From NCBI GenBank assembly GCA_947258655.1, contig CAMYJD010000004.1:7644-71643 (forward strand): a stretch of DNA of 64,000 nt, in the 5' to 3' direction. Positions within the stretch are counted from its first letter, which is position 1. The number at the start of each line of letters is the position of its first letter. Source of the stretch: an uncultured Gammaproteobacteria bacterium (GTDB taxonomy: Bacteria; Pseudomonadota; Gammaproteobacteria; JAADHQ01). Of this stretch, positions 4,491 to 17,066 are shown piece after piece. The notes beneath the pieces were generated by a model, which saw only the letters and a list, made by a program, of their open reading frames with translations, did not search any database and was not told the origin of the DNA. The translations under genes and the position numbers were made by a program.

Positions 4491-5852
4491 TTATGCCCTC
4501 GCTTGTAGCTGTCGCGCTGCCGTACTAAAGGTTAAATAGCTGGCAACGAGTATTGCCGGTACACCGAGTAAAGCGGCATAACTAAAGAACCATGCATAAC
4601 CATAGGCCTCCACAATCACGCCTGAAAAACCGCCGAGAACTTTCGCCGGCAGGGTCATTAGCGAACTGAACAGGGCGTATTGCGTGGCGGTGTAGGCCGC
4701 ATTGGTCAGGCTGGATAGATAGGCAATAAAGGCTGCCCCGGCCAGGCCGCCGGAAAAATTATCTGCACTGATGACAATGGCTAGCCAGACCTTTTCGGGG
4801 CCCAGTGTCGCCATGTAGGTAAACAATAAATTGGTTACTGCAACGAGTACTGCGCCGAGAATCAATGGTCGGTGGATCCCGTAACGCACGACCAGGATGC
4901 CACCCGCAGCCGCACCGCCAATCGACATGAAAAAACCAAAAACCTTGGCGATGTTGGCAATGTCGGGCTTGCTGAAGCCGAGGTCAAGATAGAAAGGATT
5001 AGCCATCACACCCATGGTGATATCCGAAATACGGTAGATACCAATGAAAAACAGAATAATCAGGGCCAATTTTCCATAGCGCGTGAAAAAATCGACAAAC
5101 GGGCTAACCACCGCACTGCTGAACCAGTCCAGAAAGCGCTGCAGGCGTGAGGGCATATGACCGCCATGGCTGATGACGTCGGCAGTGTGTGCCTCACGTT
5201 CACGCGTTGCTGCTGAAACCTTATGTTCAGGTTCACTGATCAGTAATACCGTTACTATGCCAACGCTCATCAGTGCGGCCATGACCATGTAACTCAGTGA
5301 CCAGCTTGAAAATTCGGCAATATAAAACGCGCCAGCCCCGGCGACCAACAAGGCAAGGCGATAACCCAGAATATAGGTGGCGGCCATCGCGCCCTGGTAT
5401 TCCTTATCGATAATTTCAATACGATACGCATCCAATGCAACATCCTGGGTTGCTGAACTGAACGCTACCAGCAAACCGAACACTGCCATCATCGTTAAGT
5501 CGATGCGCGGGTTCGTTATGGCCATGCCTAGCAGGCCGCAAGCGATACCCAGCTGCGCGGCCAGCATCCATCCGCGGCGTTTGCCTAGGAGTCTCGTCAG
5601 CACAGGGAATGGCAAGCGATCGATCACCGGTGACCAGATCACTTTAATAGAATAGGTAATGCCGATCCAGCTAAAGAAGCCAATCGTCGCTCGACTGACA
5701 CTGGCCTCAGTCAGCCAGGCCGACAAAGTTGAAAATACGAGCAGAAACGGCAGGCCAGCGCTGAATCCGAGAAATAACATCGCAATCACGCGCGGTTGTG
5801 TATAGACCAGAAGCGCCTCGCGCCAGCTATGCATGGGGGGCAGTACAGTCAA
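4491..5852 (-). CDS. ampG: AmpG-family muropeptide permease
   Basis: Major facilitator with many hydrophobic helices, 453 residues. The start L-V-Y-T-Q-P-R-V-I-A-M-L-F-L-G-F-S-A-G-L-P and the motif S-A-T-Q-D-V-A-L-D-A-Y-R-I are typical of AmpG, the inner-membrane importer of anhydromuropeptides for cell-wall recycling. The start is a TTG codon at 5852: GGAGG lies five bases upstream, whereas the next ATG, six codons in, has no comparable site. The gene is on the opposite strand to its neighbours and has its own promoter region in 5853-6124, in which I recognise no specific element. Confidence 0.88.
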   Translation of the reverse strand: MTVLPPMHSWREALLVYTQPRVIAMLFLGFSAGLPFLLVFSTLSAWLTEASVSRATIGFFSWIGITYSIKVIWSPVIDRLPFPVLTRLLGKRRGWMLAAQLGIACGLLGMAITNPRIDLTMMAVFGLLVAFSSATQDVALDAYRIEIIDKEYQGAMAATYILGYRLALLVAGAGAFYIAEFSSWSLSYMVMAALMSVGIVTVLLISEPEHKVSAATREREAHTADVISHGGHMPSRLQRFLDWFSSAVVSPFVDFFTRYGKLALIILFFIGIYRISDITMGVMANPFYLDLGFSKPDIANIAKVFGFFMSIGGAAAGGILVVRYGIHRPLILGAVLVAVTNLLFTYMATLGPEKVWLAIVISADNFSGGLAGAAFIAYLSSLTNAAYTATQYALFSSLMTLPAKVLGGFSGVIVEAYGYAWFFSYAALLGVPAILVASYLTFSTAARQLQARA

Positions 5853-6124
5853 ATTGTCCTCCAGTTTTTCTTGTTTTCAGCCCCTACTTTAGCATGTTTA
5901 TGCCATATGAATTAGTCAAACGGGATTTGATCAAGGGATTAAGGTGTCTGGGATTAGGGGGGGCATGGGTGATAGTACTTGGAAGTCTGTTGAACCAGGG
6001 GGTGCGTTAAAACTGGGAAAAATGGTTGATTTCTGTTCTGGTATTTTAAATTTAGAACTCTGACCTCAGTAAAACATTAATAATATGTAAAATGACCTGT
6101 AGTATGTATATATCTGATAAGTAT

Positions 6125-6514
6125 TTACATGAATATAGCTATAATTTTTTCGTAAAGGGTATTTGCTTTATATGGTTTCACGATATATCCATCGATTCCA
6201 AACGCAATGGCCTGCCTTACTTTATCTAGCTCAGCAGTCGCTGTCACCATCATGAATGCGGTAGATTGAAGTGTATCGTCAGATTTTATTGTTTTAAGTA
6301 CTTCAAGGCCGGTCATCCCTGGCATATTCCAATCACATATAATCAGATCAAATTGCGTGCGCTCCATTTTTTTAAGTGCATCTTTTCCACTCATTGCTGT
6401 TGCCAGGCGAAAGAAGCCGACATCTTTTAAAAATGTTTTCATAATACTTATCATCGATGGAACATCATCGACTATAAGAATTTTTTTGTCTTTTATAGGG
6501 TCTGGGATATTCAC
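6125..6514 (-). CDS. CheY-like single-domain response regulator
   Basis: Single receiver domain of 129 residues with no output domain. The acidic pair D-D is at 16-17, the phospho-acceptor Asp is D61 in I-C-D-W-N-M-P-G, a conserved T lies in M-V-T-A-T, and the lysine is in I-V-K-P-Y. It is transcribed away from the che operon, which has its own CheY (7146-7508). It may drive the motor, act as a phosphate sink, or be a second output. AAAGAG lies five bases before the ATG. A GCCGATAC sequence upstream (minus strand, 6589-6596) resembles the -10 of flagellar sigma-28 promoters, but no fitting -35 is seen. Confidence 0.85.
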   Translation of the reverse strand: MNIPDPIKDKKILIVDDVPSMISIMKTFLKDVGFFRLATAMSGKDALKKMERTQFDLIICDWNMPGMTGLEVLKTIKSDDTLQSTAFMMVTATAELDKVRQAIAFGIDGYIVKPYKANTLYEKIIAIFM

Positions 6515-6705
6515 TCTTTCTGTCCTTTACCGTCACCTTAAACATTATTTATTTTGATGATAATGAATTATACGTAGCTTAATCAACTGTATCGGCAGTT
6601 TGGTTAATATCTGATACACCCAGGTGGTGAAAATAATTAACATAAATTTACAATTACCGGGTATGCGGATATTGATCGATTAATGACGTATTTTCAGTAA
6701 ATATC

Positions 6706-6732
6706 TAAAGCTTTACTAGGTAAAGTCGATAG
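6706..6732 (+). promoter_or_regulatory. Candidate sigma-28 (FliA-type) promoter of the che operon
   Basis: TAAA at 6706-6709, a 15-base spacer, and GTCGATAG at 6725-6732. The enterobacterial sigma-28 consensus is TAAA-N15-GCCGATAA, so spacing is exact, the -35 matches fully and the -10 matches at six of eight bases. It is 44 bases before the STAS gene start. This would place the chemotaxis operon under flagellar late-gene control. It is a pattern match only. Confidence 0.5.
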
Positions 6733-6775
6733 GAAGAAAGTGTATATAGAATAAAGCATTATGGAGATTAAACTA

Positions 6776-7093
6776 ATGGCTGCAAATTCACTGGAGATCA
6801 TCGATATGGATAATGGCAAGATGTTTATTTGTCCTGATTATTTCGATATTTCAATAGTGTCTGATGCAAAGAATATATTTAAGGGCCTATTAGATGAAAA
6901 ACCTGAAACTATTAGCCTTGATACTAAAAAAATGGAATCGATTGATACGGCAGCTATGCAATTATTGTTTGTGTTTATTAATGATGCAAAAAAGAAAGGT
7001 ATTAATATTAATTTCCAGATTGATGATGATTCCCTGTGCAGAACAGCATCTGTATTAGGTCTTAGTAAGCATTTAGGGCTTAACTGCGAATAA
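6776..7093 (+). CDS. STAS-domain protein of the chemotaxis cluster
   Basis: A 105-residue STAS (anti-sigma antagonist type) domain, first gene of the che operon. I start at the ATG at 6776 because GGAG at 6763-6766 is nine bases upstream; the in-frame ATG at 6761 overlaps that site. The loop that carries the phosphoserine in SpoIIAA (D-S-S-G) reads I-D-T-A-A-M-Q-L-L here, so alanine appears to replace the phospho-acceptor. STAS proteins in some chemotaxis clusters bind CheA or CheW arrays; a partner-kinase role is not supported by any anti-sigma kinase gene nearby. Confidence 0.75.
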   Translation: MAANSLEIIDMDNGKMFICPDYFDISIVSDAKNIFKGLLDEKPETISLDTKKMESIDTAAMQLLFVFINDAKKKGININFQIDDDSLCRTASVLGLSKHLGLNCE

Positions 7094-7145
7094 TAACTGA
7101 ATTTGAGCATGAGATTTCTAACGGGAAGGACAAGAGGTAAGTCAA

Positions 7146-7508
7146 ATGACGACGATACTCACTGTAGATGATTCAACATCTATGCGACAAATGGTCTCGT
7201 TCACTTTAAAAGAAGCAGGATATGATGTTGTTGAAGCTAAAGATGGTGTTGACGGATTATCAAAAGCGAAAAATTCCAAGTTTAATCTAATAATAACAGA
7301 TGTGAATATGCCAGAAATGGATGGAATTTCTTTGGTCAAAGCACTCAGGGCAATAACAAGATATAAATTTACCCCAATTTTATTACTTACAACTGAAGCA
7401 GGGCCAGATATAAAACAGGAAGGAAAAGCAGCTGGGGCAACAGGATGGTTAGTAAAACCATTTAATCCTGATCAGTTGTTAAACACTATAGTAAAAGTAG
7501 TAGGCTGA
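7146..7508 (+). CDS. cheY: Chemotaxis response regulator CheY
   Basis: Receiver domain of 120 residues, the canonical CheY of this operon. The phospho-acceptor is D52 in I-I-T-D-V-N-M-P-E-M-D-G, the acidic pair is D8-D9, the conserved T is in L-L-T-T-E, and the lysine is in L-V-K-P-F. Phosphorylation by CheA directly downstream is expected. AGAGG lies upstream of the start. No cheZ phosphatase gene occurs in the window, so dephosphorylation may depend on CheD, on the second CheY as a sink, or on genes elsewhere. Confidence 0.9.
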   Translation: MTTILTVDDSTSMRQMVSFTLKEAGYDVVEAKDGVDGLSKAKNSKFNLIITDVNMPEMDGISLVKALRAITRYKFTPILLLTTEAGPDIKQEGKAAGATGWLVKPFNPDQLLNTIVKVVG

Positions 7509-7515
7509 GGAAAAT

Positions 7516-9570
7516 ATGACCATAGACCTCTCCCAATTTCATGCGATCTTTCTTGAAGAAAGCTTCGAAGGGCTTCAGGTAATGGAGTCCAGTTTATTGA
7601 ATATGATTGAAGGCGAAACTGATGTCGATATTATAAATAACATCTTCAGGGCGGCGCATTCTATAAAAGGTGGTAGTGCTACATTCGGCTTTAGTAACGT
7701 TGCAGCTCTTACGCATGTTTTGGAAACCTTGCTGGATGAATTTAGAAGTGATAAACGTATTGTTACTAAAGACCTTATTAGCTTGCTATTGGAGTCAGTG
7801 GATTGCGTGCGTGACATGCTATCTGCGATTCAGGATGGTGGTAAATATAATGAATCCAGTGCTATTGAGGTGCAGAATAAACTGCAGCAGGTGCTAACAG
7901 GAGAAATACTTTCAATTAATAATCCTGATGAAGCAGAGGAAATAGAGTCAGACGTGCAAGGGTGGAGGATTTTATTTTCACCATATCCCAGCATGCTGCA
8001 GAATGGTAATGATCCTTTCCGCATTATCAGGGAAATTCAGTCACTGGGATCGGTCAAGATCGAGGTTGACCTGGAAAAACTCCCAATATTAGCAGAGTTG
8101 GACCCGGAAGATTGCTATCTTTCCTGGGAAATACTATTGCATGCAGCCGTTTCAAAAGATGAAATTAATGAAGTTTTTGAATGGGTAATTGACGACTGCG
8201 ATCTGAAAATAGAGCCCATCGGCTCAGATGTAGTTATTCAAGATACTGATAATGAGATTATAGAAGAAATGCTGTCAACGGCAGCAAACGCACGAGATGA
8301 TGTAGTAAAGGGTGATCAGGAATCAGAATCACTTTCTCGATTAAGTCCTGAAGTTAAACATAAAAGAACCACTAATAGCGGTTCGATCAGGGTTGGTATC
8401 GATAAAGTAGATGAAATGATCAATATGGTTAGTGAGCTGGTTATTACTCAATCCATGTTGGGGCAGCTGGGTGAAGACTTTACTATGGTCGATATTGAAA
8501 AACTGAAAGAAGGATTATGTCAACTTGAGCGGAATACGCGAGAATTACAGGAAAGTGTTATGCGTATTCGCATGTTACCCATTAGTTTCGTGTTCAATCG
8601 CTTCCCTAGAATGATACGTGACTTGAGTAATGAGCTTGGTAAACAAGTTGAATTAAGATTGTCAGGCGAACAGACGGAAGTAGATAAAACTGTCATGGAA
8701 AAAATAGGTGATCCGTTGATTCATCTTGTGCGTAATTCCCTGGATCATGGCCTGGAAAAGCCGGATATCAGGGTTGCTAATGGTAAGCCTGAAATCGGAA
8801 TATTACACTTGAATGCCTATCATAAGGGTGGAAGCATAATTATAGAAATATCAGACGATGGCGCGGGTCTTGATAGGGACAAAATACGTAATAAGGCAAT
8901 CCAGAATGGCTTAATAGCCGATGATGATATCCTGACAGACGAGAAAATATATGACCTGATATTTCAGGCCGGTTTTTCTACTGCCGATCAAGTGAGTGAT
9001 GTGTCTGGACGGGGTGTGGGTATGGATGTCGTCAGAAAAAATATTCGAGAGCTAGGTGGAAGCATTGTTATCAAGTCTACACCAGGAGAAGGATCAAAGA
9101 TAACCATTCACCTGCCATTAACATTAGCAATAATGGATGGACAATTAGTCCGTGTTGGCGATGAGATATATATTATCCCGCTTGTTTCCATAATAGAATC
9201 ACTACAAATCAAGCCGGAAAAAGTCAAGTCCATTACTGGAAAAATGGAACTGTATAAGTTGCGCGAAGAGTATCTTAATATAACTCGTTTGTACCAGTTA
9301 TTTACACTTACGCCGGATAGTGAAGACATCAATGACGGTTTGCTAGTGGTTGTTGAGGGTGATGGTGCCAAGGTTGGATTATATGTTGATGAATTGCTTG
9401 GCCAGCAACAAGTGGTTATCAAGAGTCTTGAGACAAATTACAAACATATTAATGGAGTATCAGGTGCGACTATTCTAGGTGATGGAACTGTGGCGATGAT
9501 ATTAGATGTTCCAGGACTGATCGCTATTTCCAAAGATAGAGCAGAAAACACAGTCGAACGAGTTGCATGA
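7516..9570 (+). CDS. cheA: Chemotaxis histidine kinase CheA
   Basis: Full-length CheA of 684 residues. The Hpt (P1) domain holds the phospho-accepting H48 in A-A-H-S-I-K-G-G. A linker region follows, then dimerisation and ATPase domains with the N box (H-L-V-R-N-S-L-D-H-G), the G1 box (D-D-G-A-G-L) and the G2 box (G-R-G-V-G-M-D-V-V). The C-terminal P5 regulatory domain is CheW-like. It phosphorylates CheY and CheB in response to receptor state. It starts seven bases after cheY and ends nine bases before cheW, so the three are co-translated. Confidence 0.95.
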   Translation: MTIDLSQFHAIFLEESFEGLQVMESSLLNMIEGETDVDIINNIFRAAHSIKGGSATFGFSNVAALTHVLETLLDEFRSDKRIVTKDLISLLLESVDCVRDMLSAIQDGGKYNESSAIEVQNKLQQVLTGEILSINNPDEAEEIESDVQGWRILFSPYPSMLQNGNDPFRIIREIQSLGSVKIEVDLEKLPILAELDPEDCYLSWEILLHAAVSKDEINEVFEWVIDDCDLKIEPIGSDVVIQDTDNEIIEEMLSTAANARDDVVKGDQESESLSRLSPEVKHKRTTNSGSIRVGIDKVDEMINMVSELVITQSMLGQLGEDFTMVDIEKLKEGLCQLERNTRELQESVMRIRMLPISFVFNRFPRMIRDLSNELGKQVELRLSGEQTEVDKTVMEKIGDPLIHLVRNSLDHGLEKPDIRVANGKPEIGILHLNAYHKGGSIIIEISDDGAGLDRDKIRNKAIQNGLIADDDILTDEKIYDLIFQAGFSTADQVSDVSGRGVGMDVVRKNIRELGGSIVIKSTPGEGSKITIHLPLTLAIMDGQLVRVGDEIYIIPLVSIIESLQIKPEKVKSITGKMELYKLREEYLNITRLYQLFTLTPDSEDINDGLLVVVEGDGAKVGLYVDELLGQQQVVIKSLETNYKHINGVSGATILGDGTVAMILDVPGLIAISKDRAENTVERVA

Positions 9571-9579
9571 GGAGGTGAT

Positions 9580-10095
9580 ATGTCAGCATTAGAAACAGTA
9601 GATGTTAACACGAATTATGATGTTGGCGAAGGTGCTGAAAATCAATATCTGACATTTATGTTAATGGGTGAAGAATACGGCGTCGATATCTTGCGTGTTC
9701 AGGAGATCCGCTGTTGGCAAACTGTAACTACATTGCCCAATGCGCCGGTATATGTGAAGGGTGTCGTCAATATCAGGGGTTCCATCGTGCCGGTCGTTGA
9801 TTTAAGAATGCGTTTTGGTATGGAGGAAGTTGAGTATACCCCGGTTACTGTCGTGATAGTTGTAAAAGTACTTAACGAAGAAGGACGTGAACGTGTAATG
9901 GGTGTGGTTGTTGATACCGTATCAGACACTTACATTATTCCAGAAGAAAATATGAAGCCAGCCCCTGAATTCGGTGACAGTATAGATTTAACCTGTGTCA
10001 AAGGTTTGGCTACAGTCAATGACAATATGCTTATATTGCTCGATATTGACCGTCTGTTGAACTCGGATGAGCTAACGGTACTGGAGCGGGGCTAA
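9580..10095 (+). CDS. cheW: Chemotaxis coupling protein CheW
   Basis: CheW of 171 residues linking receptors to CheA. The family pattern is clear: Y-L-T-F-M-L-x-G-E-E-Y-G-V-D-I-L-R-V-Q-E-I, then N-A-P-x-Y-V-K-G-V-V-N-I-R-G-S-I-V-P-V-V-D-L-R. AGGAGGTGAT, an almost perfect Shine-Dalgarno sequence, spans the gap from cheA, which suggests strong translation. A 230-base space follows before the receptor gene; it holds no gene that I can see. Confidence 0.95.
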   Translation: MSALETVDVNTNYDVGEGAENQYLTFMLMGEEYGVDILRVQEIRCWQTVTTLPNAPVYVKGVVNIRGSIVPVVDLRMRFGMEEVEYTPVTVVIVVKVLNEEGRERVMGVVVDTVSDTYIIPEENMKPAPEFGDSIDLTCVKGLATVNDNMLILLDIDRLLNSDELTVLERG

Positions 10096-10325: not shown

Positions 10326-13028
10326 ATGGCTACCAAGAAAAAAATGAATTTTGACCCATTGGTCTCGATGAGTAAAGAGAACGGTGCTGTGCGCAAAAAA
10401 CGCAGAAAAGGCAAAAAGATGAAAGGTCTTAATGCTGATCTACTTGAAAGTAGTTTTAATGCTTTGGCGCCACAAGGAGAGCTACTTGTAAGTAAATTTT
10501 ATGAAGAACTCTTCAAGAGGTATCCCTCAGTTCAATCTATGTTCAGTCAAACAACGCCCGAGTCACAGCAGGGAAAACTACTGGCTGCATTGAAATTAGT
10601 GGTTAAAAATAGTCGTAACCCTAAGGTGCTTAAGCGGGTGCTGACAGGGTTGGGCGAGAGACACCAGGCTATCGGTGCTTTAGCAGATCATTATCAGGCT
10701 GTTGCTAGTACATTACTTGATGTAATGTCAGAGATGTCAGGTGATCTATGGACGGATGATGTTGATAAAGCATGGCAAGATGCATTAGATAAAGTTTCTA
10801 AAATTATGATGAAGGCTTATTCATCAGAGGATGCTGATATGGTTACTACGGCAGTTATAGAAAATGACGAAGAAAAGGAAGCGAAGAGATTTAATGCTGT
10901 CGTTGATAATGCGATGACGCCGATCATGATGATCGACAGGGATTTGACTATAACTTACGTTAATAAATCGACAGTGGATTTACTATCGGAACATGAACTT
11001 ACATTAAAAGCATTGTATCCAAGTTTTTCAGTAGATACGCTGATTGGGACTTGTATTGATATATTTCATAGTAATCCTCTGCATCAGCGCCAGATGTTGG
11101 CGAACCCGAATAACCTGCCCTATTCTACTGATATTGTGATAGGTCCGTTAACGTTCAGAATCAATGTCACTGCTATGTATGATGAATCGGGGAATTACGT
11201 TGGCAATTCCCTTGAATGGTCCGATGTGACTTCAATGCGTGCAGCAGAAGATGAAGCTATACGTCTGAAGGGTACTGTAGATGCAGCCATGACAGCGATT
11301 ATGATGATCGACCGCGATTTTAATATAACGTATGTAAACGAGTCTACGCGCAGATTGTTTCGCAAGAATGAACAAGAATTAAAGCGGACCTTTCCAGGTT
11401 TTACGGCCAATAATCTGATCGGTGTAAATATTGATGTGTTCCATAAAAACCCGGATCATCAAAGACAACTGTTGTCAGACCCGAAAAATCTTCCCTATCA
11501 AACAGATATACAGGTAGGGGTTTTAAGATTCAACCTCAATGTTACAGCAATATTGGATTCTACTGGTAACTATATCGGTAACGCATTGGAATGGGATGAT
11601 GTTACAGATACCCGCAGACGTTTGGCAGATTCTGAAGGTAAAATCGCAGCAATTAACAAAGCCCAAGCTGTTATCGAGTTTGAGCTGGACGGAACCATTC
11701 AAACGGCTAATGAGAATTTTCTAGAAGCGACGGGTTATACCCTGGATGAAATACAGGGTCAGCACCACAGCATGTTTGTCGTACCGGAACAACGCGATAG
11801 TATCGAGTATCGTACGTTCTGGGAGAAGCTTGGTCGCGGTGAGTTTGACGATGGTCAGTACAAACGGATTGCTAAAGGTGGCAAGGAGGTATGGCTACAA
11901 GCTACATACAATCCGATTATCGATGCCAATGGCAAACCCTTTAAGGTCGTTAAATACGCGTCTGATATTACTGTACAGAAAAATACTGAATTTGAATTGC
12001 AACGTGTACTAGAAGAGTCGTCCAGGGTGATGGGCGCATTGAGTACAGGAGACCTGACAGAGCTGATGACGGGCGAATACTCAGGTGAATTTGCAGTGCT
12101 GCGTAATGCAGTTAATTCATCTATAACCAATTTGAAGAATATGGTCGGTGAGATCCTACAGTCCAGTGTTAATATCAGTACGGCATCAAGCGAAATCGCT
12201 CAAGGAAATGCAGATCTGAGTCAACGAACGGAGGAGCAGGCATCATCTCTGGAAGAAACGGCTTCAAGTATGGAGGAATTGACAGGTATTGTAAAACAGA
12301 ATGCGGAATATGCTGGTCAGGCAAATCAATTAGCTACTGGAGCCAGCTCTGAAGCAGAGAATGGTGGCAAGATAGTGCATAAGACGATTGAAGCCATGGC
12401 TGCCATTAGCAAAAGTAGCAAGGAAATTGCTGATATTATCGGTGTTATTGATGAGATTGCTTTCCAGACCAATCTGTTAGCTCTGAATGCAGCAGTTGAG
12501 GCTGCGAGGGCAGGAGAACAAGGCCGTGGCTTTGCGGTAGTTGCTGCAGAGGTTCGTAATCTGGCACAGCGTAGTGCATCCGCAGCGAAAGAAATTAAAT
12601 CACTGATAAAAAATAGTGTCGAAAAGGTTGATGAAGGCAATCGACTGGTAGATGAGTCTGGAATATCCTTGGAAGAGATAGTGACTTCGGTCAAGAAGGT
12701 CAGTGATATCATTGCCGAAATTGCAGCAGCCAGTCAGGAGCAATCTTCCGGCATTGACCAGATTAGCAGAGCAGTAACACAAATGGATGAGATGACTCAG
12801 CAAAATGCAGCATTAGTGGAAGAAGCAGCGGCCTCCAGTGAATCACTAGACGAACAGGCGAATGGCCTGAGTGAGCTGATGGAATTCTTTAATACAGGGC
12901 AAGAGCAAAAAGCTATCAAGACTCCAAGGAGGCCTGTAAGGGCTGAGAATGTCCGTTCAGAAATCAGGGCAGCGCCGATCAGGAAAAATAAACCTGTTGT
13001 AAATGATAACGAATGGGAAGAATTCTAA
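10326..13028 (+). CDS. Soluble globin-PAS-PAS-PAS methyl-accepting chemoreceptor
   Basis: Receptor of 900 residues with no membrane segment. Residues 23-33 are very basic. A globin domain spans about 36-165, with the pattern [10 protein letters not shown] and a likely proximal haem ligand H113 in G-E-R-H-Q-A-I-G. Two near-identical PAS domains (about 188-303 and 312-425) carry F-H-x-N-P-x-H-Q-R and a closing L-E-W-x-D-V-T, as in the haem PAS domains of Aer2. A third, ordinary PAS covers about 435-555. The signalling domain holds the conserved hairpin tip ([16 protein letters not shown]). The last five residues, E-W-E-E-F, fit the W-x-x-F tether that recruits CheR/CheB; Aer2 of P. aeruginosa ends in a similar peptide. 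The likely stimulus is oxygen or another haem ligand. Confidence 0.88.
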
Positions 13029-13124
13029 CCTTTGAAGTTATTATGATAAATGCAGTATTAGGGAAGAGTCGTTACAGGGTTGGTGTATTTACGCTTGTAT
13101 TGCCAGTACCGTGGAGTATCAGAA

Positions 13125-13961
13125 GTGGTTCGTGGTCGTGAGTTCAATCTAACAGATAGAGACTTTAGTTATATACAGAAGCTAGTCATTGATAAAACTG
13201 GTATAGTTTTAAGTGATGCCAAGTATAATATGGTATATAGTCGTTTGACCAAGCGACTGCGATCATTATCTCTTCCTGATTTTTCATCATATTGTCAATT
13301 GTTAAAAGATTGTAGTGGCAATGAATTTAATAATTTTGTGAATGCTATTACAACTAACCTGACTTTCTTCTACAGGGAGCAGCATCATTTTGATTATGTG
13401 ATAAATCATCTTATTCCATACTGGAAGAAGGTTCGTAGCAAGGAAAGGCGTATCAGAATATGGTCTGCAGGTTGTTCTACGGGAGAAGAGCCCTACTCGA
13501 TTGCTATTACCTTGCTCGAACACTTTGATGATATCAAGCACTGGGATGTTAAAATCCTGGCGACTGACCTGGACAGCAATGTCGTGAGTCAGGCAAAAAA
13601 AGGAATCTATACCCGTGATCGTATAGATGGTCTGCAAGGTAGTTTAGTCAAAAAATGGTTCAAGAGGGGAAGAGGAACACACGATGGAATGGTCAGGGTT
13701 GTCCCGGCCTTGCAGGAGCTGATTACCTTTAAGCAGTTAAACTTGCTTGAAAGTTGGCCTTTCTATGGCAGCTTCGATCTTATATTCTGCAGGAACGTGT
13801 TGATTTACTTCAATAAAGCTACTCAAAAGGAGTTGGCAGAGCGGTATGCAAATATTATGCAGGATGATGCTACGCTTTTTCTCGGTCATGCAGAAAGTTT
13901 GTTTAAAGTCAGCCAACGTTTTAAATCGCTAGGCAATACGATTTATCACAAGGTAATTTAA
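13125..13961 (+). CDS. cheR: Chemotaxis protein methyltransferase CheR
   Basis: Methylates receptor glutamates using S-adenosylmethionine. The N-terminal helical domain is followed by a Rossmann fold with the SAM motif W-S-A-G-C-S-T-G-E-E-P-Y-S, and F-C-R-N-V-L-I-Y-F, both hallmarks of CheR. I prefer the GTG at 13125: GGAG at 13113-13116 is eight bases upstream and the protein then begins in the normal place. An in-frame TTG at 13080 would add 15 residues without support. The stop overlaps the cheD start by one base. The upstream receptor ends with a CheR-binding pentapeptide. Confidence 0.92.
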   Translation: MVRGREFNLTDRDFSYIQKLVIDKTGIVLSDAKYNMVYSRLTKRLRSLSLPDFSSYCQLLKDCSGNEFNNFVNAITTNLTFFYREQHHFDYVINHLIPYWKKVRSKERRIRIWSAGCSTGEEPYSIAITLLEHFDDIKHWDVKILATDLDSNVVSQAKKGIYTRDRIDGLQGSLVKKWFKRGRGTHDGMVRVVPALQELITFKQLNLLESWPFYGSFDLIFCRNVLIYFNKATQKELAERYANIMQDDATLFLGHAESLFKVSQRFKSLGNTIYHKVI

Positions 13962-14605
13962 TGCTAGATTTATTAGAAAGATGCAATAATTTGCCTGCGC
14001 TGTCAGTAAAAGGCTTTTCTCATATCAATCGTTTTTATGATCGTGCGCGTCGCTGTATATCAGCGAAAATATTACCAGGAGAATATTATGTGACGATTGC
14101 AGATGAACATATCGTCACGGTGTTAGGATCGTGTGTATCTGCCTGTATTAGAGATAAAGTTTTCGGGATCGGTGGTATGAATCACTTTATGCTGCCCAGA
14201 GATTATAAGGAATGTGATCCGGAAAAGTTTAATATAAGTGATGCGGCACGTTATGGTAACTATGCCATGGAGCATCTGATCAACACCATACTTAAAAATG
14301 GTGGTCGCAGGGAAAATCTTGAAGTCAAGATAGTCGGTGGGGCTAAGATCATCGCTAATATGAGTGACATAGGGCAGAGGAATGTCCAATTCGTCAAGGA
14401 TTATCTTGAGACCGAAGGTTTGACACTGCTTGGTGAAGATGTCGGTGATGTCTATCCACGCAAGGTTGATTATTATCCCTCGACGGGTAAGGTCAGGGTC
14501 AAGAAGTTGCGATCTGTACATAATGATACTCTTGTGGACCGTGAAACTGTATATGCCAACGCTATTGAACAGAAACCGGTGGTAGGCGATATTGAACTAT
14601 TTTAA
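13961..14605 (+). CDS. cheD: Chemoreceptor glutamine deamidase CheD
   Basis: CheD converts receptor glutamines to glutamates and can stimulate CheC-type phosphatases. The catalytic cysteine is C58 in V-L-G-S-C-V-S-A-C-I and the histidine is H75 in G-G-M-N-H-F-M-L-P. The length of 214 residues is normal. The ATG shares its first base with the TAA of cheR. No cheC or cheX gene is in the window. Confidence 0.93.
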   Translation: MLDLLERCNNLPALSVKGFSHINRFYDRARRCISAKILPGEYYVTIADEHIVTVLGSCVSACIRDKVFGIGGMNHFMLPRDYKECDPEKFNISDAARYGNYAMEHLINTILKNGGRRENLEVKIVGGAKIIANMSDIGQRNVQFVKDYLETEGLTLLGEDVGDVYPRKVDYYPSTGKVRVKKLRSVHNDTLVDRETVYANAIEQKPVVGDIELF

Positions 14606-14618
14606 TAAAGGCTAGGGA

Positions 14619-15695
14619 ATGTCTCGTATACGTGTATTGATAGTTGATGACTCTGCATTAGTTCGGCAACTGCTGACAGAAATACTGTCATCAGACAAAG
14701 AGCTAGAGGTAGTAGGTACTGCCTCCGATCCATATGTGGCCAGAGATAAAATTAAGGAGTTGAGGCCAGATGTGCTAACACTTGATGTTGAAATGCCAAA
14801 AATGGATGGCATTACCTTTCTCGGTAATTTGATGCGTCTTAGACCGATGCCTGTAGTGATGGTTTCTACACTTACCGAAGACGGAGCAGATGTCACCCTA
14901 CGTGCTCTGGAATTGGGTGCAATTGATTTTGTTGCTAAGCCAAAAATAGATCTTGCCAATACATTACATGAATATACCGATGTGATTGTTAGCAAGGTCA
15001 AGACTGCATCATCAGCCAATGTGCATGCATTGGAAGCAATTGTCGAGAAGAAAAAGGTAGTACCAAAGCTTTCTGCAGATGCAGTATTGGTCAAGGAAAA
15101 CTTACCTCATTATACTACCACCGATAAAATTATCGCTTTAGGAGCATCGACCGGAGGAACTGAGGCCATTAAGGATATTTTGCTTAAACTACCTGTCGAT
15201 TCTCCTGGTGTAGTCATAACTCAGCATATTCCAGGTAATTTTAGTGCTACTTTTGCAAAGCGCATGAACTCGATATGTAAAATGGTGGTGTGTGAAGCGA
15301 TTGATGGTCAGCAAATACTAAAAGGTCATGTCTATATTGCACCAGGGGATCAACACCTACTCGTAGATCGTAGAGGTACGAAATATATATGTAGGCTTAA
15401 TGATGGACCTTCTGTTAACCGGCATAAGCCATCCGTTGATGTCCTGTTTCGATCTGTCGCCCAATGTGCTGGACATAATGCTGTCGGTGTTATCCTCACA
15501 GGTATGGGGGACGATGGCGCTTCTGGTTTGCTAGAAATGCATGAGGCAGGTTCACAGACAATAGCGCAGGATGAAAAGTCCAGTGTGATTTGGGGTATGC
15601 CTGGACAGGCAGTAAAAATAGGTGCTGTAGAGCATGTTGTACCATTGAAAAAAATATCGCAGAAAATTATGGCATTAATTCAGAAGGACGAGTGA
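14619..15695 (+). CDS. cheB: Chemotaxis methylesterase/deamidase CheB
   Basis: Receiver domain plus methylesterase domain, 358 residues. The phospho-acceptor is D56 in [12 protein letters not shown]. The esterase domain has the nucleophile serine in L-G-A-S-T-G-G-T-E, the histidine in I-T-Q-H-I-P, and the aspartate near G-M-G-D-D-G-A. It removes methyl groups from the receptor and is activated by CheA. It closes the che operon; I see no clear terminator in the 108 bases before the convergent cyclase gene. Confidence 0.95.
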
Positions 15696-15803: not shown

Positions 15804-17066
15804 TTATTTACATCGTGTAACTTTGTTCCTTCCGCCTTCTTTGGATTCGTATAATGCGGAATCCGCATCATTGATCATATTTTCCAGCGTGTTGCCCGTT
15901 TCCGTACAACATCCAATGCTAATGGTCATCTTAATAACAGTACCCTCTATGATTAATGGCGTATTCATGACCGCTAATCTGATCCGCTCCAATAATGACT
16001 CAACAAATGAATCCGTCACGTTAACAGCTAATATGCAAAATTCCTCTCCACCCATTCGTGCTAAAATATCGGATTTACGCAATTGTGAACCAATAATAGT
16101 AGAAACATGCTTCAAAGCTTGATCGCCTATATAATGGCCATGTTCATCGTTAATACGCTTAAAATGGTCTATATCGATCATAGAAGACATTAACGTAATA
16201 TTGTTACGCACTGCATTTTGATGTAGCTTTTCACCAGTTTCAAAAACATATTTTCTATTATAAAGCCCCGTTAGATAATCTTTGGTGGCTGCATCCCTCA
16301 TTTGGCGATAATTCACATTGGCATCTACGTTTTGATTGATACGGCAATAGAATTCTTCTTCTAGAAATGGCCTGTTAATGAAATCATTTGCACCTGCTTT
16401 TAGTAATTTTACAGATACCATGCCCCCGCCACTTGCAGATATACCAATTATACCTAACTCATCACGTGAATATATTTCTCTCACTTTGGATATGAATTCT
16501 ATGCCATCCATTTTTGGCATATTGTAATCAGTAACGATTAATATAATGCCATCATATTCATCTAGCTTGTCTAGTGCATCGGCTCCATCACACGCCTCTA
16601 CGATGTTATAGAAATGACTCTCTAATAAAGTCCGAATGTGGGCACGTGATGATACTGAGTCATCAACTATGAGTATGCTCCTTTCTGCGTTGTCTCTTAG
16701 GCGGTTTACTGTCGAAATAAGGTACTCAATTTCATTTAAATTTTGTTTCACTACATAATCAATAACACCTTTTTCCATCATTGCATCATGCGTATTGTCG
16801 CTGAGTGAGCCCGTAAGGACGATGATGGGTATTCCCAGACTCTGGATATAGTCAACAATTTCTCCATTGGGCGCATCTGGCAAATTAAGGTCTAGAATAG
16901 CGAGAAACGTGTCATCAGCATGATGAGTCATAATCTCTTCAGCCTGTTTCATAGTAAAGGCAGATATCACATCAATTTTTAATTGCTCGGTTAAGCTATG
17001 CGCCAGCAGTTCATTTATTGCGCGGCTATCTTCAACTATTAATATTGTTTTTGCTTTGATTTCCAT
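15804..17066 (-). CDS. Dual-receiver diguanylate cyclase (REC-REC-GGDEF)
   Basis: Makes cyclic di-GMP from GTP when phosphorylated. Receiver 1 spans about 5-120 (Asp in L-A-I-L-D-L-N-L-P), receiver 2 about 128-245 (Asp in V-T-D-Y-N-M-P-K-M-D-G). The GGDEF domain follows, with the active loop M-G-G-E-E-F and an intact allosteric inhibition site R-K-S-D five residues before it. It converges on cheB and sits next to a broken PilZ (c-di-GMP receptor) gene, so chemotaxis and c-di-GMP signalling meet here. A GTCGATAA sequence upstream (minus strand, 17140-17147) resembles a sigma-28 -10 without a matching -35. Confidence 0.92.
   Translation of the reverse strand: MEIKAKTILIVEDSRAINELLAHSLTEQLKIDVISAFTMKQAEEIMTHHADDTFLAILDLNLPDAPNGEIVDYIQSLGIPIIVLTGSLSDNTHDAMMEKGVIDYVVKQNLNEIEYLISTVNRLRDNAERSILIVDDSVSSRAHIRTLLESHFYNIVEACDGADALDKLDEYDGIILIVTDYNMPKMDGIEFISKVREIYSRDELGIIGISASGGGMVSVKLLKAGANDFINRPFLEEEFYCRINQNVDANVNYRQMRDAATKDYLTGLYNRKYVFETGEKLHQNAVRNNITLMSSMIDIDHFKRINDEHGHYIGDQALKHVSTIIGSQLRKSDILARMGGEEFCILAVNVTDSFVESLLERIRLAVMNTPLIIEGTVIKMTISIGCCTETGNTLENMINDADSALYESKEGGRNKVTRCK

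Follow-up and report, generated by a model that had tools for sequence, protein, structure and literature searches.

A soluble chemoreceptor of the Aer2 type (F7 system) is encoded in the window, i.e., the whole stretch of 64,000 nucleotides analyzed here. It probably uses up to three b-type haems in line to read a dissolved gas, for which O2 is the likeliest candidate. The receptor is a variant of the Aer2 kind and belongs to a family that occurs in numerous uncultured Gammaproteobacteria. The more striking fact is that its globin has spread to other parts of the chemosensory array, namely to CheA, CheW and STAS proteins, which goes beyond what the initial annotation of this DNA, made from the letters alone, had found.

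Domain layout and haem pockets of the receptor

The receptor is an open reading frame of 900 residues (Table 1), for which Pfam lists a globin (PF00042, E 1.9e-14, 54.6 bits against a cut-off of 22), PAS families over up to three stretches, HAMP_2 (31.1 bits, cut-off 24.3) and MCPsignal (1e-57). Its motifs are GERH at residue 110 (H113), FHSNP at 247 (H248), FHKNP at 372 (H373), EW at 297-298 and 422-423, and EWEEF at 896-900. H113, H248, H373, W298, W423 and the C-terminal tether EWEEF had all been named in the initial annotation and were found in their places. The highest Kyte-Doolittle mean over 19 residues is 1.26 and therefore no membrane segment is predicted in the receptor, in agreement with the same source. 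At its N-terminus (10326-10370) the receptor carries NFDPLVSM, a variant of the motif GFDPLAWM, which with its variants is common to receptors with and without a globin (loci L010, L017, L022, L024 and L050) and is possibly a docking peptide.

Table 1 Features of the receptor and its gene cluster in the window.
Feature	Position	Strand	Remarks
STAS-like protein	6761..7093	+	weak: PF01740 E 0.0005, 20.2 bits against a cut-off of 22.6
cheY	7146..7508	+	
cheA	7516..9570	+	window copy without globin
cheW	9580..10095	+	window copy without globin
Receptor, soluble, Aer2-like	10326..13028	+	900 residues
Globin domain	10425..10829	+	residues 34-168; proximal His H113 (10662-10664)
PAS1, Aer2-type	10887..11240	+	residues 188-305; H248 (11067-11069), W298
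PAS2, Aer2-type	11262..11615	+	residues 313-430; H373 (11442-11444), W423
Third PAS (PAS3)	11655..11996	+	residues 444-557; closest solved relatives are FAD-type PAS domains
Single HAMP (HAMP_2)	12009..12137	+	residues 562-604; Pfam
MCP signalling hairpin	12327..12797	+	MCPsignal residues 668-824; Pfam, MCP alignment
C-terminal pentapeptide EWEEF	13011..13025	+	residues 896-900; CheR tether motif
cheR	13080..13961	+	
cheD	13961..14605	+	
cheB	14619..15695	+	

The globin is a 3/3 globin of the flavohaemoglobin/Vitreoscilla type with H113 as the proximal His, and its best sequence matches in the PDB are a Ralstonia flavohaemoglobin (5.6e-13) and the haemoglobin of Vitreoscilla (7.2e-12). The Hmp family of NCBIfam covers just residues 38-164, and Pfam lists no FAD/NAD reductase domain in the receptor, which thus departs from the flavohaemoglobin layout. 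Neither protoglobin (PF11563), the type found in HemAT, nor Bac_globin (PF01152) is listed for the receptor by Pfam up to E 1; a protoglobin-type globin was rejected, as Pfam gives PF00042.

An AlphaFold model of residues 31-438, computed with 46 family sequences, reached a mean pLDDT of 88.8 and a pTM of 0.48. The predicted domain folds are reliable; their mutual arrangement in the model is not, because of this pTM. As the initial annotation would have it, the stretch is predicted to fold as a globin, which superimposes on O2-bound Hell's Gate globin I (Z 21.8, 131 residues, rmsd 1.5 Å), and as Aer2-like PAS, with a TM of 0.89 to 6CEQ by the length of 6CEQ.

Conservation of the globin pocket was surveyed in 86 domains, taken from the window and from the 62 loci of the scan described below. 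None of the 86 deviates at Tyr B10, Pro C2, Phe CD1, Gln E7 or Leu E11, with B10 preselected through the FY of the scan pattern and the other pocket residues not; His F8 is present in each of the 85 domains that reach the position, one domain being cut by a contig end before it. The residues are invariant alike in the globins of receptors, CheA and CheW. The initial annotation had taken H113 for the proximal His and would have given up its multi-haem idea for a globin lacking that residue in alignment, a case that did not occur.

PAS1 and PAS2, searched jointly against the PDB (E up to 0.01), returned three matches, all of them Aer2 haem PAS domains: 6CEQ (2.6e-27), 3VOL (2.7e-22) and 4HI4 (3.7e-21), the displayed alignments falling on PAS2. 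H373 and W423 of PAS2 align with the His and Trp of 3VOL and 4HI4, while 6CEQ has the His but Leu for the Trp; H248 and W298 of PAS1 occupy the same alignment columns. The Aer2 haem His and Trp are therefore both found in the receptor. A wider survey with a PAS model built from family proteins covered 149 Aer2-type copies in 55 receptors, one from the window and the others from 54 loci (L095 was dropped by the filter). The haem His is kept in 148 of the 149 copies, the exception being Tyr in L059, and the Trp in all 148 copies that reach its position.

The motif F-H-x-N-P-x-H-Q of the initial annotation is present, but to judge from this conservation the haem ligand in it should be the first His, as the second is His in only 112 of the 149 copies. 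The first His also aligns with that of FHKNP in the comparison with the Aer2 structures. Counted from W283 of P. aeruginosa Aer2, H234 of that protein is presumably the first His of the motif. A review names H234 as its haem ligand (PMC13401364).

Searched alone, PAS3 has MmoS (3EWK, 2.1e-11) and E. coli Aer (8DIK, 1.7e-10) as top matches, followed by phototropin and other LOV domains. We take MmoS and Aer to be FAD PAS domains; PAS3 lies nearest to this type and is therefore not to be counted as a haem site. The receptor thus has two haem-type PAS domains and one flavin-leaning PAS domain. A flavin type of PAS1 and PAS2 was rejected, since their PDB matches are all Aer2 haem PAS domains and only PAS3 leans toward flavin, and a chance match of motifs was rejected on the PDB matches of globin and PAS and the family-wide pocket conservation. 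Two Aer2-type PAS domains with E-W motifs and a third PAS are what the initial annotation had described; a better alignment with flavin-binding PAS types, which would have ended its multi-haem idea, did not occur for PAS1 and PAS2. Its count of up to three haems is the natural reading of a globin with a proximal His and of haem-type PAS1 and PAS2; from the pocket residues, we infer that the receptor would bind haem and O2.

Aer2-type features, gene cluster and known relatives

The hairpin of the receptor lacks two 14-residue blocks, one per arm, which are found in six other MCPs of the genome (seven loci were tried, of which the pattern caught six and missed L005). We take a gap of two such blocks to be the expected difference between 36-heptad and 40-heptad hairpins, and on this assumption the receptor has the 36-heptad hairpin of Aer2-like receptors. 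Its EWEEF tail fits the pattern x-[HFYW]-x2-[HFYW], and its gene lies in a cheA/W/R/D/B cluster. As described in PMC7184735, Aer2-like receptors are 36H, the F7 arrays of P. aeruginosa and V. cholerae depend on them, and the pentapeptide ends 96 of 130 of them.

The receptor resembles Aer2/McpB of P. aeruginosa and Vibrio Aer2 in its haem-type PAS with a ligand His, its cytoplasmic location, its 36-heptad-type hairpin and its pentapeptide tail, and it shares the PAS Trp with P. aeruginosa Aer2. Unlike the latter, which has HAMP1-3 before the PAS and two HAMP domains after it, the window receptor has an N-terminal globin in place of HAMP1-3 and a single HAMP region between PAS and hairpin, where V. 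cholerae Aer2 also has two. The additional FAD-type PAS is a further difference from Aer2. Against the Aer2 equivalog NF041847 (Vibrio), the receptor scores 776.8 bits, below the curated cut-off of 1200.

The genes for the STAS-like protein, CheY, CheA and CheW lie upstream of the receptor gene, and cheR, cheD and cheB follow downstream. The order cheA-cheW-receptor-cheR-cheD-cheB recurs in 29 of the 62 loci; contig ends truncate many of the remaining ones. Homologues of the STAS-like protein stand at the same place in other clusters. In P. aeruginosa, the aer2 gene is presumably likewise placed between cheW and cheR. The cluster of the window is of the Aer2 (F7) kind. It is flanked on the opposite strand by genes for a GGDEF protein with two receiver domains (15804-17066) and a single-receiver protein (6125-6514).

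The genome holds further CheA genes and two flagellin genes. One CheA gene and both flagellin genes are located on contig C1 and the window on C4, which fits, without proving it, an output other than direct flagellar control, as we infer. The STAS gene of the window is a candidate for this output by analogy, because in Shewanella crsR and crsA, which form an anti-sigma partner switch acting on RpoS, lie together with Aer2 in the che1 locus (PMC9855816).

We propose that the flavohaemoglobin-type globin at the tip and then the two Aer2-type haem PAS domains would read the gas, and that a redox input may come in addition from the FAD-type third PAS beneath them. In a dimer with occupied haem sites and O2 as the probable ligand, ligand-driven changes would travel in line along helical linkers and through the one HAMP into the 36-heptad-type hairpin, which would then set CheA activity. 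Adaptation of the receptor would be carried out by CheR, tethered by EWEEF, together with CheB and CheD. For Aer2 haem PAS domains, O2 sensing is reported from four species (PMC13401364).

Like HemAT and other globin-coupled sensors, the receptor carries an N-terminal globin on a soluble MCP. The HemAT globin is of the protoglobin type, PF11563 (PMC6194562), unlike the flavohaemoglobin-type PF00042 globin of the window, which is separated from the hairpin by haem PAS domains. The same paper counts seven proteins with PAS, Bac_globin (PF01152) and MCP among 8,075 genomes, one of them a cytosolic, predicted aerotaxis receptor of Corallococcus coralloides. The window receptor is like this protein and the six others in uniting PAS, globin and MCP hairpin, and by description is set apart from them through its globin, PF00042 instead of PF01152; the accessible description of the seven mentions neither an Aer2-type PAS nor an F7 cluster. 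HGbRL of Methylacidiphilum (PDB 3WFW), a putative sensor protein, has a globin from the same broad group and differs in its Roadblock/LC7 output and in having no PAS. The literature search, outside which most subscription papers fell, yielded no account of the globin-PAS receptor family of the window and none of a globin in CheA or CheW. The initial annotation had seen no description of a receptor that unites a globin with haem PAS domains; as far as the search reached, the precedent for globin, PAS and MCP in one protein is the version with a PF01152 globin.

Distribution of the family

Proteins with globin and PAS were found in several families in a search of 94 genomes, the own genome included. 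When genome contigs were scanned with an alignment of 14 globin sequences, 62 loci were confirmed, 55 of which hold an open reading frame with globin and PAS, so that the window receptor is no single case; the initial annotation had suggested a domain search for further proteins of the order globin-PAS-PAS-MCP. Among the other seven, L049 and L053 look like receptors that a contig end truncates among or behind the globins, L083 and L104 show only a globin-CheA, L090 and L091 only a globin-CheW, and L102 is an unrelated long open reading frame of a Myxococcales MAG (4872-8411), in which kinase-like and leucine-rich stretches were seen by eye and such a globin lies near the end.

All 62 loci come from MAGs, nearly all gammaproteobacterial by record title, with Chromatiales, Ectothiorhodospiraceae, Woeseiaceae, Thiohalobacter, Sulfuriflexus and Thiotrichaceae among the groups; three titles say "proteobacterium" only and two Myxococcales. 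L097, in the che cluster of a Myxococcales MAG, encodes a globin-PAS-PAS-MCP receptor, possibly through transfer. The full order of the window, globin-PAS-PAS-PAS3-MCP, was seen once more among the 62 loci, in L066. On the stretches of seven of the 55 receptor loci (L054, a 3.2-kb contig, and L056, L058, L059, L063, L067 and L105), no cheA, cheW, cheR or cheD of the type seen in the window was found.

Within one class the family is common: of 369 genomes drawn across it, the own genome included, 45 have a globin match of at least 119 bits. The 52 matches in total each lie in a frame of at least 240 residues, one with two stops, and the thirty best, checked singly, all read globin-PAS-PAS at least. 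In a phylum-wide draw, the window's own genome was the only one of 398 with such a globin. Presence is patchy within the genus, where two of four genomes have the fusion (G000 and G002) and G001 and G003 show none.

This patchiness, a family copy with two internal stops (G121) and related receptors without a globin (L022 and L024) would suit a receptor in which the globin adds little and PAS1 and PAS2 alone sense, as in globin-less Aer2 receptors. We consider this quite unlikely, given the strict conservation of the globin pocket and the strong retention of amino acids relative to synonymous change between the two globins of L081 described below.

The same globin in CheA, CheW and STAS proteins

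In eight loci (L049, L050, L052, L053, L060, L081, L083 and L104), which amount to seven genomes because L053 and L104 are one isolate, CheA carries a globin between its N-terminal domains and the dimerization domain, a layout for which Pfam was run on four of the eight. The window CheA aligns with globin-CheA over its full length, apart from a gap where the globin sits. Of 44 scan loci with a CheA open reading frame at least 45% identical to that of the window, eight carry the globin, L083 and L104 having been found through it. A model of globin-CheA built with six sequences is of low overall quality, with a mean pLDDT of 56.8, although the globin stretch in it is helical at 72-86 by blocks of ten. 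An origin of globin-CheA as assembly chimera was rejected, since it occurs in seven genomes from at least four sequencing projects by title and the kinase domains are intact in the four scanned with Pfam.

A globin-CheW is present in five genomes. One or more globins follow the CheW domain in L055 (201-1145), L090 (7425-9248, three globins) and L091 (3-1322, two), and a globin is inserted within the domain in L085 (6963-7886) and L143; the CheW globin of L085 is identical to the globin of L144, whose contig is equally long. In receptors, globins also occur in tandem: the open reading frame of L050 (11147-16405) combines six with four Aer2-type PAS domains and MCP, L051 has four or more and L060 three. 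The globin arrays of L050 and of L049/L051, another genome, look collinear on the tree, which argues against an assembly error.

Such numbers, up to six in tandem and further copies on CheA, CheW and STAS, are what a load of binding sites would look like, and the pocket matches the one in flavohaemoglobins and single-domain globins. Instead of sensing, the globin could hence buffer gas locally or scavenge NO/O2 and so protect the haem PAS domains or the array. We judge this unlikely: turnover as NO dioxygenase needs a reductase domain, which the receptor does not have, and the globin of CheA, between N-terminal and dimerization domains, looks better placed for control than for storage.

Proteins with globin and STAS are encoded beside the receptor in two genomes (L141, 9086-10030; L142, 5618-6568). 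Both start with a GFDPLAW motif, as many receptors do. They recall RsbR of the Bacillus subtilis stressosome, a globin fused to STAS that binds no haem (PMC4476040). With this precedent, two STAS fusions at hand and a Phe instead of Leu at E11 in L142 (seen by eye and outside the 86-domain set), the globin might be a haem-less module for structure or dimerization. The globins of L141 and L142, however, retain a proximal His, and across the 86 domains of receptor, CheA and CheW neither the proximal nor the distal haem residues vary, so that we regard a haem-less module as highly improbable.

In a tree of 135 columns, much of which was left unresolved, the fused globins form one supported group (97/88) apart from the six other globins included. 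The globin of L102, which is not a che protein, falls inside this group. The labels CheA and CheW require at least two and at least one changes, respectively, on starred branches. In L081, the globins of CheA and receptor are sisters (100/99) with 90.4% amino-acid identity, and their codons are identical at 90% of first, 96% of second and 54% of third positions. With amino acids kept and third positions diverged, a copy seems to have moved within the lineage and since been held by selection. For most other fused globins, the nearest relative lies elsewhere than in the receptor of their own genome, and thus several moves or one old move are both possible. Tentatively, and at somewhat less than even chances, we suggest that one haem-globin module was copied into receptor, CheA, CheW and STAS and that O2 (or NO) acts simultaneously at several layers of the array, beyond the receptor tips.

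Because a single chain combines haem sites of two unrelated folds, the receptor offers a testbed for range, thresholds and the discrimination of O2 from NO. A globin on two haem PAS domains, together with globins in kinase, adaptor and regulator of related bacteria, suggests an unusually haem-rich sensor of oxygen or gas. Chemosensory arrays are thought to take their input at the receptors. A globin between the N-terminal and dimerization domains of CheA could make a kinase that reads gas itself, and with the spread of the module to CheA, CheW and STAS, gas may in some species be read directly at two or more layers of the array.
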